The notes under the pieces were generated by a model. The model worked only from the letters and a program-made list of their open reading frames with translations. It did not search any database and had not been told where the DNA came from. A stretch of 64,000 nt of DNA from Lagierella massiliensis (GTDB lineage: Bacteria > Bacillota > Clostridia > Tissierellales > Peptoniphilaceae), in NCBI RefSeq assembly GCF_001407835.1, contig NZ_CYUO01000004.1:262739-326738 (forward strand). The letters are read 5' to 3'. Below, piece after piece: positions 4,428 to 39,998 of the stretch (its first letter is position 1; each line of letters starts with the position of its first letter). Made by a program: the position numbers and the translations under genes.

Positions 4428-5377
4428 GCTATTTAGATTATGTAAATGAAAAATGTATTGAATGTGGAAAATGTACAAAAAACTGTGATTTTTTAACTAA
4501 GTACCACTTAAATTTAAAAGACTATACTAAACGTGAAGATTTAAAATATCACTGCTTTTTATGTGGTGTGTGTAAACAGGTATGTCCTCTGGACCTTGAT
4601 GGTAGAAAGGTTTCAACTGAACTTAGAATGGGTGAAGAAAAAGGTTTTGGAATGATGAAATTTGAAAAATCCCCATACATATTTAGAAATAATTCTAAAA
4701 AGAAGAGTAAGACACTACTTTTTTTAGGATGTTCATTTCCCAGACAATATCCTGAAACTACAAAGGCATTAATCGATTTATTTATCCAAAATGGAATTGA
4801 TTTTTCTCTTGATTGTTGCGGGAAACCTGTTTATGAAACTGGAGATGAAAAGAGAATAAAAAAAGACAAGGATAGGCTTGAGGGTATTTTTAAAGAAAAG
4901 GGTATAGAAAAAATTGTAACAGCTTGCATGAACTGTTACTACTTCTTTAAGAAGCACTACGACATTGAAGTTGTTTCTATATATGAAGAGCTCAAAGAGC
5001 TTGGACTTGGCAAAAAAATAGAAGAAGAGAGAAATATCTTTATACCATGTCCCGACAGACAGACAAAAGAGGTGTTGGAACACATAAGATATTTTGTACC
5101 AAATCTAAAAACGCCATTTGAAAATGTGCAATGCTGTGGTCTTGGTGGACTTGCCCTTGGTACAGAGCGTGAACTTGCCGATGGATTCGTGGAAAAACTT
5201 AGGGAATATGACATACCAGTTACTACCTACTGTGCCAGCTGCTCTGGTAGATTTAGGAAAAATGAAATTAAATTAACTGGACATATTTTATGTGAGATAA
5301 TGGATGTAGAAGAAAGAGAAAGTTTAGGTTTCTTAAAAGGGAGTCTACAAATTAGAAATTATAGGAGGAATAGATGA
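4424..5377 (+). CDS. Fe-S oxidoreductase with two CCG (heterodisulfide reductase-like) domains
   Basis: A cytoplasmic electron-transfer protein of 317 residues. The N-terminal part binds two 4Fe-4S clusters: CIECGKCTKNC near residue 12 and CFLCGVCKQVC near 45. Two cysteine-rich CCG domains follow. The first has FLGCS...CCGKP and CMNC. The second has FIPCPD, VQCCGLGGLAL and TYCASCSG. This architecture is like HdrD/GlpC/LutA subunits. It overlaps its neighbours by four bases. It may donate electrons to the cluster's redox steps (radical SAM reduction or disulfide chemistry); the partner is inferred. Confidence 0.82.
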   Translation: MSYLDYVNEKCIECGKCTKNCDFLTKYHLNLKDYTKREDLKYHCFLCGVCKQVCPLDLDGRKVSTELRMGEEKGFGMMKFEKSPYIFRNNSKKKSKTLLFLGCSFPRQYPETTKALIDLFIQNGIDFSLDCCGKPVYETGDEKRIKKDKDRLEGIFKEKGIEKIVTACMNCYYFFKKHYDIEVVSIYEELKELGLGKKIEEERNIFIPCPDRQTKEVLEHIRYFVPNLKTPFENVQCCGLGGLALGTERELADGFVEKLREYDIPVTTYCASCSGRFRKNEIKLTGHILCEIMDVEERESLGFLKGSLQIRNYRRNR

Positions 5378-5808
5378 CAGCTACTGAATTTCAAAGAGAG
5401 ATGAGTTCAAAAGGATGTAACTGTGCTCAAATAGTATTTTCATATTTTGCAGAAAAAAACGGCCTTGATATTAATAAAGCACTTAAAATTACTTCTGCAT
5501 TTGGTGGAGGTATGGGAAAGGGAGATGTTTGTGGTGCTATAACAGGTGCATATATGGCCCTTGGACTAATCTATGGAAATGATTTAGAAAATAGCGACAG
5601 GTCTATTCTTAAGGAAAAAATAAAAGAGTTTGACTTGGAGTTTCAAAAGATATCAATGGAACGTCGCTGTGAAGATATTCTTGGAGTAAATGTTGGAGAC
5701 AAAGAAAAGGTTATGGAGTTTGCAAAGAAAAATCCAGATTTCAAGGCGATTTGTCCCAAACTCGTTATAAATAGCATAAATATTATAGAAAAATTGGAGG
5801 AAAAATAG
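5374..5808 (+). CDS. C_GCAxxG_C_C family redox protein
   Basis: A small cytoplasmic protein of 144 residues. It carries the signature cysteines of the family: GCNCAQIVF near residue 15, the glycine-rich AFGGGMGKGDVCGAITGAYMALG near 44-66, and later RRCEDILG and FKAICPKLV. The glycine of GCA is followed by GAITG here, a mild variant of the name-giving motif. It starts inside the end of the Fe-S protein with a good AGGAGG site and ends one base before the next gene. The function of the family is unknown; metal binding or redox chemistry is likely. Confidence 0.83.
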   Translation: MTATEFQREMSSKGCNCAQIVFSYFAEKNGLDINKALKITSAFGGGMGKGDVCGAITGAYMALGLIYGNDLENSDRSILKEKIKEFDLEFQKISMERRCEDILGVNVGDKEKVMEFAKKNPDFKAICPKLVINSINIIEKLEEK

Positions 5809-6147
5809 ATGAGAGATTATTTTGAGAGAAAAGACTTAGAAGATTTTAATAATGGAAAAATTGGGGAAAGTGGAAAAGAACTTTGGGATAGCTTCTTAAA
5901 GTACTATGGTCCTGTATTTGAAGAAGGCGCACTAACAACAAGAGAAAAAAATCTAATTGCCCTTGCAGTTGCCCACGCAGTTTCATGTCCTTACTGCATC
6001 GAAGCATATACAGTGGCGTCTTTAGAAAGTGGATACACTAAAGAACAAATGATGGAAGCGGTTCATGTTGCATCGGCAATAACAGGGGGAGCAACTCTTG
6101 CCCATGGAATTCAAATGTCAAAAATTGTGGATGAACTTGAGATTTAA
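5809..6147 (+). CDS. Arsenosugar-cluster peroxidase-like protein (CMD/AhpD fold)
   Basis: A 112-residue AhpD/carboxymuconolactone decarboxylase-like protein. The redox CxxC is Cys60-Cys63 (VSCPYCIEAYT), followed by the helix that usually supplies the AhpD-type histidine region (MEAVHVASAITGGATLAHG). In some relatives the CxxC contains selenocysteine; here both positions are TGT and TGC cysteine codons. It abuts the previous gene and shares one base with arsS. It is inferred to be a disulfide reductase or peroxidase partner of ArsS. Confidence 0.85.
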   Translation: MRDYFERKDLEDFNNGKIGESGKELWDSFLKYYGPVFEEGALTTREKNLIALAVAHAVSCPYCIEAYTVASLESGYTKEQMMEAVHVASAITGGATLAHGIQMSKIVDELEI

Positions 6148-7100
6148 TGGAAAAAAGAAACGAAAAATTAGGAATTGTAACCCCGTTTTTTGAAAGAGCC
6201 GGAGAACTTGTGGCAAACTCCACTCCATCTACCATGCAGATTAATCTAACAAGAATATGTAACCTTGCATGTAAACACTGCCACTTAAGCTGCAGTCCAA
6301 ATAGAACAGAAGATATGGACTTTGAAACAGCAAAGGCCTGTGTAGAAGTTTTTAAAAGAGAAGGATTCAAGGTGCTTGACTTAACTGGGGGAGCTCCAGA
6401 AATGTCAAAAGTTTTTAAATATCTAATAGAAGAGCTAAGGGACTGTGCGGAAAATATAATTGTAAGGACAAATTTATCAATCTATCTTGAAGATGGATAC
6501 GATTTAGAATTTTTAAAAGACAATAGAATTGAAATTTTTGCATCCCTTCCCTTTTACGAAAAGTCAAAGACTGACAGAGTTAGGGGAGAGGGTGTTTACG
6601 ACTCCAGTATAATAATATTGCAAAAGTTAAACCAGTTAGGATATGGAACAGAGCTTCCATTAAACTTAGTATACAATCCATCGGGAGCAATTTTACCAGG
6701 AAATCAAGAAGATTTAGAAAATGTATATAGATCCAAACTTAAAGAAGACTATGGAATAGTTTTTAGTAATCTATTTTCAATTACCAATATGCCCATAGGC
6801 CGCTTTAGAAACTGGCTTGAAAGATCAGGCAACTACGAAAGATATATGAAGAAGTTAGAATCTGCTTTTAATGACGAAGTAGTTGAAAACTTAATGTGCC
6901 TTGACACCATATCAGTGGATTGGGACGGTAGTATTTATGACTGTGACTTTAACCTAAGCCTTGGATTTAAATGCCAAGGACAGTTAAATATAAAAGAGAT
7001 ACCAGAAGGTTTTGACTTTAAGAGAAAAGTTATGACCGCAGATCACTGCTATGGATGTACAGCTGGAGCAGGGTCATCCTGAGGTGGTTCATTAAGCTAA
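6147..7100 (+). CDS. arsS: Radical SAM protein ArsS, selenoprotein with UGA read as Sec
   Basis: Radical SAM enzyme related to arsenosugar-biosynthesis ArsS. The cluster-binding cysteines are Cys38, Cys42 and Cys45 (RICNLACKHC), followed by Cys49. The core continues with LTGGAPEM and the Cys-rich C-terminal region (LMCLDTISVDWDGSIYDCDFN). The C-terminus reads HCYGCTAGAGSS, then TGA at 7080-7082, then GGSLS and a TAA stop at 7098-7100. Family members end in AGxGSSCGG or AGxGSSUGG, so the TGA sits exactly where Cys or Sec is expected, giving 317 residues with Sec312. A hairpin follows at a suitable distance. The frame is seen directly; Sec decoding is inferred from family knowledge. It is last in the 1795-7100 cluster. 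No arsM-like methyltransferase is in the window. Confidence 0.9.
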
Positions 7101-7115
7101 GTTTAGCAAAAAAGA
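7088..7115 (+). promoter_or_regulatory. SECIS-like hairpin downstream of the arsS UGA
   Basis: GCTA (7096-7099) and TAGC (7104-7107) close a loop AGTT. The loop starts about 18 bases after the UGA, within the 16-37 base range known for bacterial SECIS elements, and holds the G-U pair of bases typical of SelB-binding loops. TT/AA pairs beyond a small internal AA/AA loop may extend the stem. It overlaps the ArsS stop codon. The stem is short, so this is a candidate. Confidence 0.55.
7092..7107 (+). repeat. 16-bp direct repeat, left copy
   Basis: TTAAGCTAAGTTTAGC, identical to 10823-10838. The left copy encodes the last ArsS residues, its stop codon and the SECIS-like hairpin. The two copies bracket the tetR-to-amidohydrolase cassette. 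Confidence 0.85.
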
Positions 7116-7122
7116 TTTATAC

Positions 7123-7160
7123 AAATAGGTAGTAAAAATTAACTACCTATTTTTTATTTT
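7123..7160. terminator. Bidirectional terminator between arsS region and tetR
   Basis: AAATAGGTAGT and AACTACCTATTT pair around an AAAAATT loop and are followed by a T-rich tract. It lies between convergent genes and can stop transcription from both sides. Confidence 0.8.
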
Positions 7161-7701
7161 TTATAAATCGAAATAAACTTTTAGGGACTAAGTTTTTAAA
7201 GCTTTCAGATATTTCTTTAGCGCTTAAGTTTTTATCGTCCTTTAACCACTGTAATAAACAAGTACAATAACCTATACAATAAAAATTATAGTCAAAATAC
7301 AAAACTTTATTGTTCAATATCTCTTGGCTATTTTGATTGAAGGTATAAATTAGCATATTTTTTTTAGTCTCAATAATATACCTATCGACAAAGGGACTGT
7401 TTGGATTAAAAGAGATAATTTGCTTATAAAAATTTCTGTTTGAATCCATTAAGTTTATATACAAATCAGACAAAGACGAAGAGTTATTTAGTCTTTCCAT
7501 TGCAAGATGTGCTGGCTCAACATTTTTTTTATGTATATAATAGATTAAATCATCAATATTATAAAAATTCCTATAGAATGTTTGCCTAGATAATCCTGAT
7601 TTTTCAACGATATCAATAACATTTATATTCTTTATTTTTGTTTCTTTAGACAATTCGATTAAAGCTTTTGAAAAAATATCTTTATTTGAAACGTTTTCCA
7701 T
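7147..7701 (-). CDS. TetR-family transcriptional regulator
   Basis: A 184-residue DNA-binding regulator. The N-terminal helix-turn-helix is IKNINVIDIVEKSGLSRQTFYRNFYNIDDLIYYI, the classic TetR helix 2-3-4 pattern with the TFYRNF recognition helix. The C-terminal half is a ligand-binding all-helical domain with no recognisable signature. The ATG at 7701 is chosen because GGTGAT lies five bases upstream; an ATG at 7761 would add a non-homologous tail without a ribosome site. It is divergent from the DUF5058 transporter operon at 7961, which it probably controls. Confidence 0.85.
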   Translation of the reverse strand: MENVSNKDIFSKALIELSKETKIKNINVIDIVEKSGLSRQTFYRNFYNIDDLIYYIHKKNVEPAHLAMERLNNSSSLSDLYINLMDSNRNFYKQIISFNPNSPFVDRYIIETKKNMLIYTFNQNSQEILNNKVLYFDYNFYCIGYCTCLLQWLKDDKNLSAKEISESFKNLVPKSLFRFIKNKK

Positions 7702-7813
7702 AATATCACCACATAAATTATAAGCTATTTGAGAAATATAAACAATATTAAACAAACTCAAGAAATTACAAATTATAGTAAATGTAACATAATAATTAAA
7801 CTTTCATAAAAAT

Positions 7814-7829
7814 GTACTTTTTCAAGTAC
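7814..7829. promoter_or_regulatory. Palindrome in the tetR/DUF5058 divergent promoter region
   Basis: GTACTT and AAGTAC flank TTTC in the about 260-base region between tetR and the transporter genes. It is the cleanest inverted repeat there and is a candidate TetR operator. A second imperfect repeat (ACTA...TAGT) spans about 7847-7872. No strong sigma-A promoter was recognised. Confidence 0.4.
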
Positions 7830-7960
7830 GAAAAAAGGTTTTCATAACTATATCACGACAAAGCGATGTAGTTGTAAATTGAAATAATAATCTTATATGA
7901 AATAATAAAATCATAAAATATGAATCTATAAAAACGATTCTAAAAAACGAGGAGGTTATT

Positions 7961-8677
7961 ATGCCGTATATGGAAGCAGCCAATTCGATTTGGCTATGGA
8001 TTGCTTGTGTACCTACAGTATTATTGGTAATTTATCAAGCATTGTATTTTTATAAAAAAGTAAAGGAAGCATCTGTGCTGGTTGACATGGGATCGGGAGA
8101 AGTTTCAAAAGCGTTTAAAATTGGAGCGATGTCAGCGATAGGGCCAGCGTTTGGTGTATTTGTAGTAATGTTGGGACTAAGTTCACAAATTGGGGGACCA
8201 TTAGCCTGGGTACGTTTATCAATCATTGGAGCTGCGCCAACAGAGTTAGGAGCGGCCGAATTAGCAGCTAACGCAATGGGTACTACTCTTGGATCTCCAG
8301 AATATAGCTTAGTTCATTTTGCAAATGCAGCATGGGTAACTGCACTGAATGGTGCTTCATGGCTTATAATTTCAGGTCTTTTTGCGGATAAGTTAGATGT
8401 TGCAAGCAAAAAAATTACCGGTGGAGATGCAAAGTTATTAGGTGTTATTTCCGTTGGAGCTGTTTGTGGAGCTGTTGGTTTCTTCTTTGCAAATGAAATT
8501 GCAAAAGGTATAAAAGGAAATCCAGCGGCTATAGCATCAGGTATATTATCATTAGTATCGATGGTAATTCTCCATAATATTGCAAAGAAACATCCTAAAC
8601 TTACAGAGTATACTTTGGGAATTGCAATGGTTATTGGAATGATAGCAGGAGTAATATGCAAGAGAGTAATAGGATAG
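7961..8677 (+). CDS. DUF5058 family membrane protein
   Basis: An integral membrane protein of 238 residues with about six to seven helices (for example 11-30, 53-73, 160-180, 188-205, 218-235). The start follows GAGGAGG. The segment MSAIGPAFGVFVVMLGL and the loop WVRLSIIGAAPTELGAAELAANAMG are conserved in DUF5058 proteins as I recall them. It is followed nine bases later by a second membrane protein and then an M20D amidohydrolase. The pair probably imports the peptide-like or acylated substrate which the amidohydrolase cleaves; the substrate is unknown. Confidence 0.75.
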   Translation: MPYMEAANSIWLWIACVPTVLLVIYQALYFYKKVKEASVLVDMGSGEVSKAFKIGAMSAIGPAFGVFVVMLGLSSQIGGPLAWVRLSIIGAAPTELGAAELAANAMGTTLGSPEYSLVHFANAAWVTALNGASWLIISGLFADKLDVASKKITGGDAKLLGVISVGAVCGAVGFFFANEIAKGIKGNPAAIASGILSLVSMVILHNIAKKHPKLTEYTLGIAMVIGMIAGVICKRVIG

Positions 8678-8686
8678 GAGAAAGAA

Positions 8687-9352
8687 ATGGAAAATAATAA
8701 TTACGATAAGATATTTACAAAACCGATTATAAGGGTAGGAAGAGCAGTTAATTTATTAGCTGTAATTACAAGTTTATTTCCTGCGTTTATGCTGTATTTT
8801 AAATTTGATACATTCCCGGGAATTGCATCAATACTTAAGGGATGGGGCCTGGTTCTTTCTGTGTTTTTAATTGTAGCAATTGTTGAAGCTGTTTCATATT
8901 TTCCTGTTTTAGGACTATCAGGAACATATATGTCATTTATAGCAGGAAATATAGGCAATATGAGGGTCCCTTGTTCTCTTATAGCACAAGAATCTCTTGG
9001 AACACAACCAGGAACAAAAAAAGCAGAACTAGTTTCTACTTTAGGGATAGCTGGCTCAGTTGTAACAAATATTATTGTAGTAACCGTAGCAGCAATTGGC
9101 GGACAAGCACTTATGTCAATATTTCCACCTGCAGTATTAGAATCTTTTACATATGTAGCACCTTCAATATTAGGAGCTGCATTTGGTATGTATGCTGTAA
9201 AAGATTTGAAATTAGGGTTATTAGCCTTATCCACAGGATTGATTATGTTATTAGTATTAAAAATTAATTCATTTGCAATAATGATTCCAGCAAATGTTCT
9301 AATTAGCATTTTAGTTGCTGTTTTTGTCTATAAAAAAAGTATTAATAAATAA
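8687..9352 (+). CDS. Membrane protein paired with DUF5058 (transporter half)
   Basis: A 221-residue protein with about six helices (20-38, 53-75, 79-97, 118-140, 150-168, 175-190, 195-215). A glycine-rich polar loop (LGTQPGTKKAELVSTLGIAGSV) sits in the middle, like the equivalent loop of its DUF5058 neighbour. The ribosome site is GGAGAAAG. Such proteins are often left unnamed or misnamed as channels. Together with the preceding gene it looks like a two-component membrane carrier of the NupG-like/SpmAB-like kind. The function is inferred only from its genetic link to the amidohydrolase. Confidence 0.65.
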   Translation: MENNNYDKIFTKPIIRVGRAVNLLAVITSLFPAFMLYFKFDTFPGIASILKGWGLVLSVFLIVAIVEAVSYFPVLGLSGTYMSFIAGNIGNMRVPCSLIAQESLGTQPGTKKAELVSTLGIAGSVVTNIIVVTVAAIGGQALMSIFPPAVLESFTYVAPSILGAAFGMYAVKDLKLGLLALSTGLIMLLVLKINSFAIMIPANVLISILVAVFVYKKSINK

Positions 9353-9411
9353 AGCTAATTTAATAAAAAGGTTTTTGATTTAGAATCTGATAGTCAGAGG
9401 GAAGGTAAATT

Positions 9412-10779
9412 ATGGAAAAAAATATCTCAAAATATATTGATGAGAAAAAAGATGAGTTGATAAATCTAAGCAAAAAAATTTGGGAAAATCCAGAAATTTC
9501 TTTTGAAGAATATAATGCAGCAAAATGGTTTGGAGAATTTTTAGAAAAAGAAGGTTTTGAAGTCAAGATAGGAGATTATGGAGTACCAACATCAATTAGA
9601 GCATCTTTTGGATCAGGTAAGCCAGTTATTGGTTTTTTAGGAGAGTATGATGCTCTTAGAGGAATGAGCCAAGTTGTAAGTACTCACAAAGAAGCAGTCA
9701 AAGAGGGAGCTCCAGGACATGCTTGTCAACATAATTTATTGGGTGTTGCACACTTAGGAGCGGCTATTGCATTAAAAAATGAAATTGAAAAAAACAATTT
9801 AAACGGAACCGTTGTTTTTTATGGTTGCCCTGGAGAGGAAGAATTGACCGGGAAAGGATTTATGGCAAGAGGAGGTGCGTTTAAAGATTTAGATATTAGT
9901 TTTTCGTGGCATCCAGGAAATGTTAATGGAATATTACTAGGAAAATTAACTGCTCTTAATACATTTGAAATACATTACAAAGGTACAACGGCTCATGCTG
10001 CTGCAGATCCTCAAAATGGACGTTCTGCATTGGATGCTCTTGAGCTAACAAATGTAGGTGTTCAGTATTTGAGAGAACATGTAACAAATGATGTTAGAAT
10101 TCACTATAGTATATTAGATGGAGGAAAAGCTCCAAATATAGTACCTGATACGGCATCGTCTTGGTATTTTGTAAGAGCACTTTCAAGAGAAACAGTTGTT
10201 GACATATATGAGAGAATAAAAAAGATAGCTAAAGGAGCAGCTATGATGACAGAAACTGAAGTAGAAGTAAAATATTTAGGTGGTTGTTATAATACAATGC
10301 CTAATAAAGTAATTGCAGATGTTCTTTTAGAATCGATGAATGAAATTCCGAAGCAGGAGTGGTCAGAATCTGATAAAGATTTTGCAAAAAAAATGGAAAA
10401 AGAAAAAGCTAACAAAGGTTCATATGCGTCAGATGATAAAAATAATATTGCTTTATATGAAGGAGAAGTTATAGTTAGCAACTCTGACTCTTATGGTTCA
10501 TCTGATGTAGGAGATGTACATCATATTTGTCCAGGGATATTTTTCTTAACGGCAACAACAAATATAGGAGCAGCAGGACATAGTTGGCAAAATACAGCTT
10601 GTGCAGGAATGGATATTGGATTTAAGGGAATGATTTATGCTGCAAAGTCAATGGCTCTTTCTGGTCTTAAGTTTATGAAAAACAAAGAATTAGTAGATAA
10701 AGCAAAAAAAGATTTTGAAAAAGACATGATGGGGAAAGAGTATATATGTCCTATAACAGAAGAATTAGAGATTAAGTAA
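9412..10779 (+). CDS. M20D amidohydrolase, AbgB-like
   Basis: A cytoplasmic metal-dependent amidohydrolase of 455 residues. Metal-binding motifs include GEYDALRGMSQ, PGHACQHNLLG, GCPGEEELTGKG and SWHPG, and the C-terminal AGHSWQNTACAG. The inserted dimerisation domain runs from about residue 185 to 300 (HYKGTTAHAAADPQNGRSALDA). HACQHN rather than HACGHD is the form found in the p-aminobenzoyl-glutamate hydrolase subunit B group. It follows two membrane proteins, so the operon likely imports and cleaves an N-acylated amino acid or dipeptide. The exact substrate cannot be read from the sequence. Confidence 0.85.
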   Translation: MEKNISKYIDEKKDELINLSKKIWENPEISFEEYNAAKWFGEFLEKEGFEVKIGDYGVPTSIRASFGSGKPVIGFLGEYDALRGMSQVVSTHKEAVKEGAPGHACQHNLLGVAHLGAAIALKNEIEKNNLNGTVVFYGCPGEEELTGKGFMARGGAFKDLDISFSWHPGNVNGILLGKLTALNTFEIHYKGTTAHAAADPQNGRSALDALELTNVGVQYLREHVTNDVRIHYSILDGGKAPNIVPDTASSWYFVRALSRETVVDIYERIKKIAKGAAMMTETEVEVKYLGGCYNTMPNKVIADVLLESMNEIPKQEWSESDKDFAKKMEKEKANKGSYASDDKNNIALYEGEVIVSNSDSYGSSDVGDVHHICPGIFFLTATTNIGAAGHSWQNTACAGMDIGFKGMIYAAKSMALSGLKFMKNKELVDKAKKDFEKDMMGKEYICPITEELEIK

Positions 10780-10822
10780 GAAGTAAAAGAGTAGACATAA
10801 AGTTTGAATTTTAGTTTTAGAT

Positions 10823-10838
10823 TTAAGCTAAGTTTAGC
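10823..10838 (+). repeat. 16-bp direct repeat, right copy
   Basis: TTAAGCTAAGTTTAGC, identical to 7092-7107, lying nine bases before a terminator that may once have ended the arsS operon. The flanking bases outside the 16 differ from those at the left copy. Confidence 0.85.
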
Positions 10839-10846
10839 TAAAACAA

Positions 10847-10874
10847 GGCGATGGAAATTCCGTCGTCTTTTTGT
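10847..10874 (+). terminator. Terminator right of the direct repeat
   Basis: GGCGATGGA and TCCGTCGTC pair (nine pairs with two G-U) around AAT, followed by TTTTT. It ends the amidohydrolase operon now, and could have been the original arsS terminator before the cassette was inserted. Confidence 0.75.
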
Positions 10875-10949
10875 ATGGACTTGAAGAGTATTTAAAACCT
10901 TGCTAAAATTATTATGGAAATTAAATTAAGTTTTAATTTAGGAGGCAAA

Positions 10950-11195
10950 ATGAAAATACTAAAAATAATATCACCACTTATTTTAGTGTGCATATTGGTG
11001 GTTTATATAATAAAGCTTGTTAAAAATAAAAATAAAAGTAACAATGAAGATGACAACGCCATGGCAGAGGGTATGGCCATAGGTATGGGCCTTGGTACAG
11101 CCATAGGATCTGCTTGGGGTGTAGAAAATCTCGCAATTGGCACAAGCATAGGAATGCTACTTGGAATGATTGTAGGAATGAATATAAAAAAATAA
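10950..11195 (+). CDS. Small glycine-zipper membrane protein
   Basis: An 81-residue protein of unknown function. The N-terminal transmembrane helix (about 5-24) is followed by a charged loop (KLVKNKNKSNNEDDN) and a glycine/alanine-rich stretch with GxxxG spacing (GMAIGMGLGTAIGSAWG and GTSIGMLLGMIVG), which resembles glycine-zipper segments that pack in membranes. The ATG at 10950 follows AGGAGG; an ATG at 10914 lacks one. It has its own terminator. No gene name can be given. Confidence 0.7.
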   Translation: MKILKIISPLILVCILVVYIIKLVKNKNKSNNEDDNAMAEGMAIGMGLGTAIGSAWGVENLAIGTSIGMLLGMIVGMNIKK

Positions 11196-39320: not shown

Positions 39321-39998
39321 ATGAGAAGTAAATTTGATGAAGAATTAAATATGCTCAATGAAGAACTGACTGAGATGGGAGAACTAATCTCCGTTAGAAT
39401 TATAGAAGCTATAAGATCCTTTAGAAATAAGGACTTGATTAAGGCAAAGTTCATTATGGAAAATGATGATGATGTAAATGAATATGAGAGAAGAATCGAA
39501 GAAAGAGCTTTAAAACTCTTACTAAGACAGCAACCAGTAGCAAGTGACTTAAGACTTATTTCTTCTGCTCTAAAAATGGTTACTGACATGGAAAGAATTG
39601 GAGATCATGCTGTTGACATAGCAGAGATAGTAATGACTATTCCAGAAATTACTAAAGACGAAACTTATGAAAATATTATGGAAATGGCAGATGTTTCAAT
39701 TGAAATGTTAAAAGAGAGTTTAAAGAGCTTTGTAACAGGAGATCTTTCTTTAGTTGATAGTATAAAAAAACATGACGACAAAGTAGATGGACTATTTAAC
39801 AAGGTTCGAAAAGATGTTATTAAAGAAATAAAAACTGCTGATACATCTTCATCTGCAGAGTATGCAGTAGATATACTTATGACTGCAAAGTACTTAGAGA
39901 GAATTGGAGATCATGCTGAAAATATTTCTGAATGGGTGGAATATTCAATAACAGGAAAACATGTTGAACATTTACCACATGGAAAAAAGTTGGGATAA
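39321..39998 (+). CDS. phoU: Phosphate signalling protein PhoU
   Basis: A 225-residue cytoplasmic protein of two similar three-helix bundles. Each has the metal-binding ExxxD-type signature: ALKMVTDMERIGDHAVDIAE in the first and AKYLERIGDHAENISEW in the second. PhoU links the PstSCAB pump with the histidine kinase and lowers the Pho response when phosphate is ample. It is nine bases after pstB and one base before the response regulator gene. Confidence 0.94.
   Translation: MRSKFDEELNMLNEELTEMGELISVRIIEAIRSFRNKDLIKAKFIMENDDDVNEYERRIEERALKLLLRQQPVASDLRLISSALKMVTDMERIGDHAVDIAEIVMTIPEITKDETYENIMEMADVSIEMLKESLKSFVTGDLSLVDSIKKHDDKVDGLFNKVRKDVIKEIKTADTSSSAEYAVDILMTAKYLERIGDHAENISEWVEYSITGKHVEHLPHGKKLG

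Follow-up and report, generated by a model that had tools for sequence, protein, structure and literature searches.

Exact copies of the 16-base sequence TTAAGCTAAGTTTAGC lie at 7092-7107 and 10823-10838 of the window, a stretch of 64,000 nucleotides from Lagierella massiliensis (genome G000 in our comparison). The left copy is the end of the gene arsS; the right copy follows a group of four genes, here called the cassette. How did a gene end come to stand on both sides of an operon? The sequence-only reading of this DNA had proposed an insertion into the 3′ end of arsS with regeneration of its selenocysteine signal, in the manner of elements which target tRNA genes. In our view the most likely explanation is a commonplace event, DNA gained or lost between short repeats, and not a novel type of mobile element; loss in a related genome (G002) is somewhat favoured over gain in G000. 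The features of the locus are collected in Table 1.

Table 1. Features around the two repeat copies (positions in the window)
Feature	Position	Strand	Evidence and remarks
arsS, radical SAM (seleno)protein	6147..7097	+	TIGR04167 above cut-off
Left repeat copy	7092..7107	+	Last two arsS codons, stop and hairpin; probable bSECIS
Terminator-like stem between arsS and tetR	7123..7152	+	Stem scan; G001 has an AGGTAG/CTACCT stem at the same place
TetR-family regulator	7147..7761	-	PF14278; TTG start as listed, ATG at 7704 equally likely
DUF5058 protein	7961..8677	+	PF16481, 214 bits
Second hydrophobic protein, 221 aa	8687..9352	+	No Pfam match
M20-type amidohydrolase	9412..10779	+	TIGR01891 above cut-off, PF07687
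Right repeat copy	10823..10838	+	No arsS or its UGA frame upstream; continues into the flank found behind arsS in G002
Terminator-like stem right of the second copy	10845..10869	+	G002 equivalent directly follows arsS
Small glycine-zipper-like ORF	10914..11195	+	Opens the right flank shared with G002; ATG at 10950 is the likely start

The end of arsS and its repeat

The arsS gene scores 384.9 bits against TIGR04167 (cut-off 300). It has an in-frame TGA (Sec codon) at 7080-7082, and readthrough yields ...GSS-U-GGSLS up to a TAA stop at 7095-7097 within the left repeat copy. A tRNA-Sec above the cut-off is found in all three genomes of the genus. At the threshold used arsS is present in 29 of 130 family genomes, with TGA at the Sec position in 15, a Cys codon (TGC/TGT) in 13 and the motif missing in one. 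The Sec and Cys forms alternate across genera, and both occur inside g33 (G034 Sec, G114 Cys) and g22 (G105 Sec, G103 and G104 Cys); this would be a good set for the study of Sec/Cys exchange and SECIS loss.

The left copy carries the hairpin GCTA-AGTT-TAGC at 7096-7107. According to PMC13188914, the consensus for bacterial SECIS elements (bSECIS) has a distance of 16-37 nt from the UGA to the apical loop, a loop of 3-9 nt, a stem of 4-16 bp, a G in the first two loop positions and a minimum free energy of -7.5 kcal/mol or lower, and some putative bSECIS elements fail this model. The arsS hairpin agrees with the geometry (17 nt from the UGA, loop AGTT, stem of 4 bp, G second) but misses the energy criterion with -3.9 kcal/mol for 45 nt; the same 45-nt folds give -6.5 in G002, -4.2 in G001 and -7.6 kcal/mol in G034. 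Many Sec-type arsS genes have a hairpin at a similar distance with other stem letters (GAGTA/TACTC in G079 and G090, GGATA/TATCC in G105), and the folded stability of these hairpins varies widely, being weak in G133 and G130. As the energy criterion is missed, while some putative elements fail the model as well, we grade the hairpin as a probable bSECIS, on comparative grounds only. Thus the left copy is, as had been proposed, a SECIS-like end of arsS. The two copies differ in the base which follows them. It is T in G002, in G034 and at the right copy of G000, A at the left copy of G000 and G in G001. In the predicted folds this T adds one pair to the hairpin, so that the cassette junction would shorten the probable SECIS stem. 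Judged from this base, it is the right copy which appears to hold the native arsS flank context. The 5′ half of the right copy is itself predicted to pair with upstream bases and not to form the SECIS hairpin.

The 16-mer occurs only twice in the G000 genome, even when one mismatch is allowed, and its 12-base core GCTAAGTTTAGC is likewise limited to these two sites. The left copy is kept in G001 and G002, and with one mismatch in G034. Among the 130 family genomes a 15-mer of the repeat is found in seven, in four of them at the arsS end and in three in other sequence, two of which look coding. We therefore rejected a widespread hairpin. The exact repeat on both sides of the cassette, noted earlier, is borne out, and the repeat is not a common hairpin, which the earlier reading had named as a finding that would refute it. 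By itself a 16-base repeat within 6 kb is unremarkable in AT-rich sequence. The window holds two such direct repeats at most 6 kb apart, against a mean of 0.74, or 0.18 with at least five G/C, in 100 order-3 Markov simulations of the window. A second exact direct repeat, of 19 bases, is located at 39594-39612 and 39900-39918, 306 bases apart. What makes the pair significant is that its copies fall on the two edges of a presence/absence difference which was defined independently of them.

The operon and its state in the relatives

The composition of the cassette had been predicted correctly as a TetR regulator, two putative membrane proteins and an amidohydrolase. The regulator is under the cut-off of TIGR02366. 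The DUF5058 protein is likely a membrane transporter subunit, a function which we infer, and the hydrophobic sequence of the 221-aa protein points to a membrane protein. No recombinase domain is found in the four genes with Pfam and TIGR profiles (the 221-aa protein matches no Pfam profile at all), in agreement with the earlier statement that no integrase or transposase lies inside. In the 14 loci examined the hydrophobic partner adjoins DUF5058 in all ten which bear it, and an M20-type match is nearby in six of these ten, three of the six being weak (25-28% identity). The operon is thus of a known type whose substrate is not known; a role in the uptake and cleavage of peptides or amides would suit it. 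The word DUF5058 was not found in any paper of the literature searched. Elsewhere G000 has a second, distant pair of DUF5058 and partner with 27% identity (locus L064, 6155-7481). In G020 this kind of operon has expanded locally: locus L197, 1845-11281, clusters several genes for M20 amidohydrolases and TetR-like proteins, with one M20 match split in two and one DUF5058 pair.

The comparison within the genus covers three genomes (G000, G001 and G002), one of which is 65% complete. G002 is the nearer relative, its arsS being 92% identical to that of G000 at the amino acid level. Here the arsS operon (about 90% DNA identity) runs into one 16-mer and then directly into the terminator and the small ORF of the right flank of G000. 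The small ORF is 80% identical in G002 and was not found in G001. Searches of the G002 genome gave no match to DUF5058 at E 0.001 and none to M20 at E 1e-100. The predicted empty site, a single copy between arsS and the terminator, therefore exists in G002. In about 105 aligned kb around the locus we checked the edges of seven one-sided differences between G000 and G002. Only the cassette has such an edge repeat, and the six others have no exact repeat of more than 11 bases near their edges. The stretch also holds a two-sided replacement of 4509 versus 2156 bases. Hairpin-bracketed indels as a general pattern were considered because overlapping alignments made a 5.2-kb gene of G002 seem bracketed by a duplicated terminator; its two terminators differ and have no exact common repeat of more than 10 bases, and this candidate was rejected.

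The terminator right of the second copy had been taken to suit arsS. This holds in so far as its G002 equivalent follows arsS; the stem between arsS and tetR, which probably serves both genes, had been overlooked. The stem scan by itself is not significant, since three terminator-like stems were observed in the region and 2.5 are expected from shuffles. Further downstream, the interval from arsS to a cell-wall-binding protein is generally variable. In G002 this interval contains, past the small ORF, a 1726-aa protein with five FMN-binding stretches (locus L052, 5409-10589), and G001 carries a pyruvate oxidase gene in its place.

G001 is the more distant member of the genus (arsS 76-77% identical to G000). 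Its gene order is that of G000: arsS, hairpin, stem, tetR, DUF5058, hydrophobic gene and M20, and in both genomes tetR stops about 40 bases past the hairpin. After M20, however, G001 continues with a different stem-loop and an oppositely oriented pyruvate oxidase gene, and only the left copy of the repeat is present. Thus a relative exists which has the cassette at the same junction and no second copy. The earlier reading had itself named this outcome as refuting, and it speaks against an insertion in G000 of the tRNA-targeting type. The cassette is, moreover, as diverged as its surroundings: synonymous differences between G000 and G001 are 0.61, 0.62, 0.62 and 0.77 for the cassette genes and 0.61-0.78 for eleven flanking genes. 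These sites are near saturation, so equal divergence is also compatible with import from an equally distant donor. The cassette M20 proteins of the two genomes are mutual best matches with 78% identity, the next match having 67% (130 family genomes, G000 as query). Gene order, equal divergence and this best match suggest that the cassette probably predates the split of the genus or was transferred from line to line within the arsS neighbourhood. In the neighbouring genus, the outgroup G034 has a different gene behind arsS and no cassette. A C-GCAxxG-C-C family gene at 5374-5805 of the window reaches just 43% identity between G000 and G001, compared to 58-88% for its operon neighbours, which suggests replacement or fast change.

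Outside the genus we looked for a second case. A second copy downstream of arsS is found in one of 15 Sec-type arsS loci, that of G000; in the other 14, no stretch of more than 12 bases from the UGA tail recurs within the downstream DNA covered (10 kb for 11 loci, 2341 bases for G090, 1970 for G022 and 4987 for G034). The related M20 genes of G020 and G119 have folate genes as neighbours, which likewise gives no support to an insertion of the tRNA-targeting type. As no viral contig matched the arsS-end pattern or the M20 protein, a link to phages was rejected. No second example or sign of mobility was found.

Probable loss in G002 or possible gain in G000

We put it slightly above even that the segment 7108-10822 is a resident operon of the genus and that G002 lost it by deletion between the repeats. 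We suggest the following steps. An ordinary chromosomal operon, made up of a divergent TetR regulator, a probable transporter of two proteins and an M20 amidohydrolase, would have been located downstream of arsS already in the genus ancestor. In the line leading to G000 its right edge would have gained a second 16-base arsS end together with the native arsS flank, and this copy would have been present before G000 and G002 parted. In G002 the two copies could then have served as sites of slippage or RecA-independent recombination, with loss of the operon. Such a deletion leaves one copy and thus keeps the selenocysteine signal and the stop codon intact. In G000 the left copy would today serve arsS, and the right copy would be a vestige between the operon and the former arsS terminator. 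That short direct repeats at hairpins give rise to deletions by slippage is well established (PMC4134008).

The age of the second copy bears on this proposal. A neutral 16-mer survives unchanged in one line since the split of G000 and G002 with a probability of about 0.42 (the square root of 803/4457, the fraction of noncoding 16-mers identical between the two). For a copy as old as the split of G000 and G001 the one-line survival drops to about 0.15 (32 of 1480 alignable noncoding 16-mers identical), and its perfect identity would be less likely. It is rare for 16-base repeats to give rise to a deletion of 3.7 kb. Since G034 has no cassette behind arsS, the proposal further requires one gain plus one loss.

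Alternatively, and in our opinion possible but doubtful, the operon is a recent gain in G000. A relative's arsS-adjacent operon would have recombined at or next to the hairpin, so that the left copy arrived attached to the operon and the resident copy became the right one, with illegitimate or template-switch joining on one side. The native flank of the right copy, with the T common to G002 and G034, is well explained in this way; the perfect identity of a right copy which probably has no function fits a young event, and the outgroup lacks the cassette. However, the left junction is the same as in G001, so that donor and site would not be independent, and the cassette is no closer to G001 than the flanks are. 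The arsS end also has no donor-like tract. In its last 61 aligned bases G000 groups with G001 at no site and with G002 at two. We had considered an import signature in the last 201 bases, where 11 informative sites join G000 to G001 and 25 join it to G002 (28 and 175 overall); as G002 groups with G001 at 18 sites there, the apparent enrichment indicates no G001-like import, and we rejected it. That an integrase-type element targets and regenerates the selenoprotein gene end, as islands do at tRNA genes, is improbable. The gene-end target, the exact repeat at both edges and the one-copy empty site would all agree with it, but there is no recombinase inside, the 16-base site is duplicated at a single Sec-type arsS locus, in G001 the cassette stands without a right copy, and viral contigs gave no match to the arsS-end pattern or the M20 protein. 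Improbable, too, is that the second copy was selected for itself, as a hairpin at the 3′ end of the operon RNA, its match to the arsS end reflecting copying and then maintenance. The identity of 16 out of 16 bases and the position directly before a terminator-like stem would suit such a role, but the predicted fold engages the 5′ half of the right copy elsewhere and the G001 operon ends without this copy. A chance repeat, unrelated to the presence/absence difference, is refuted on the present comparison: although repeats of this length at most 6 kb apart are no rarity in AT-rich DNA, the copies match both edges of the difference, and the six other one-sided differences lack comparable repeats. 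Hardly credible, finally, is a recombinase-free insertion of operons behind Sec signals, in which the hairpin guides template switching and the incoming DNA always regenerates the signal.

Neither loss nor gain fully explains how the second copy was made. If the operon was lost in G002, an accessory operon has been cleanly removed between short repeats and the neighbouring selenoprotein gene is unharmed, its own decoding signal and stop codon being what makes up the repeat. A gain in G000 would show that an insertion can duplicate the SECIS-bearing end of a gene and that this end survives; no paper returned by a literature search for SECIS with genomic-island terms appeared to describe such a duplication. 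Were hairpin-guided insertion true, selenoprotein gene ends would be safe docking sites like tRNA genes.

Comparison with known systems

The arsS gene itself corresponds to the known ArsS selenoproteins with a bacterial SECIS (TIGR04167) in sequence family, in the exchange of Sec and Cys and in a loop 17 nt past the UGA with a G in it. It differs in that the hairpin is weak (4 bp) and that the stem-extending base seen in G002 is altered at the cassette junction. Islands at the 3′ ends of tRNA and other genes resemble the locus in the gene-end repeat at both edges, the intact gene end and the empty site; here, in contrast, no integrase is present, other arsS genes show no recurrence, and the cassette is shared with G001, where the right repeat is missing. 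Deletion between short repeats by replication slippage has in common with our case that exact short repeats, with a hairpin inside, bracket a block which is absent in a relative, and that G002 keeps exactly one repeat joined to both flanks. As to the ancestry of the undeleted form, G001 has the cassette and G034 does not. The differences are that the block measures 3.7 kb and that the repeat doubles as the functional end of a selenoprotein gene, which is therefore preserved by the loss.
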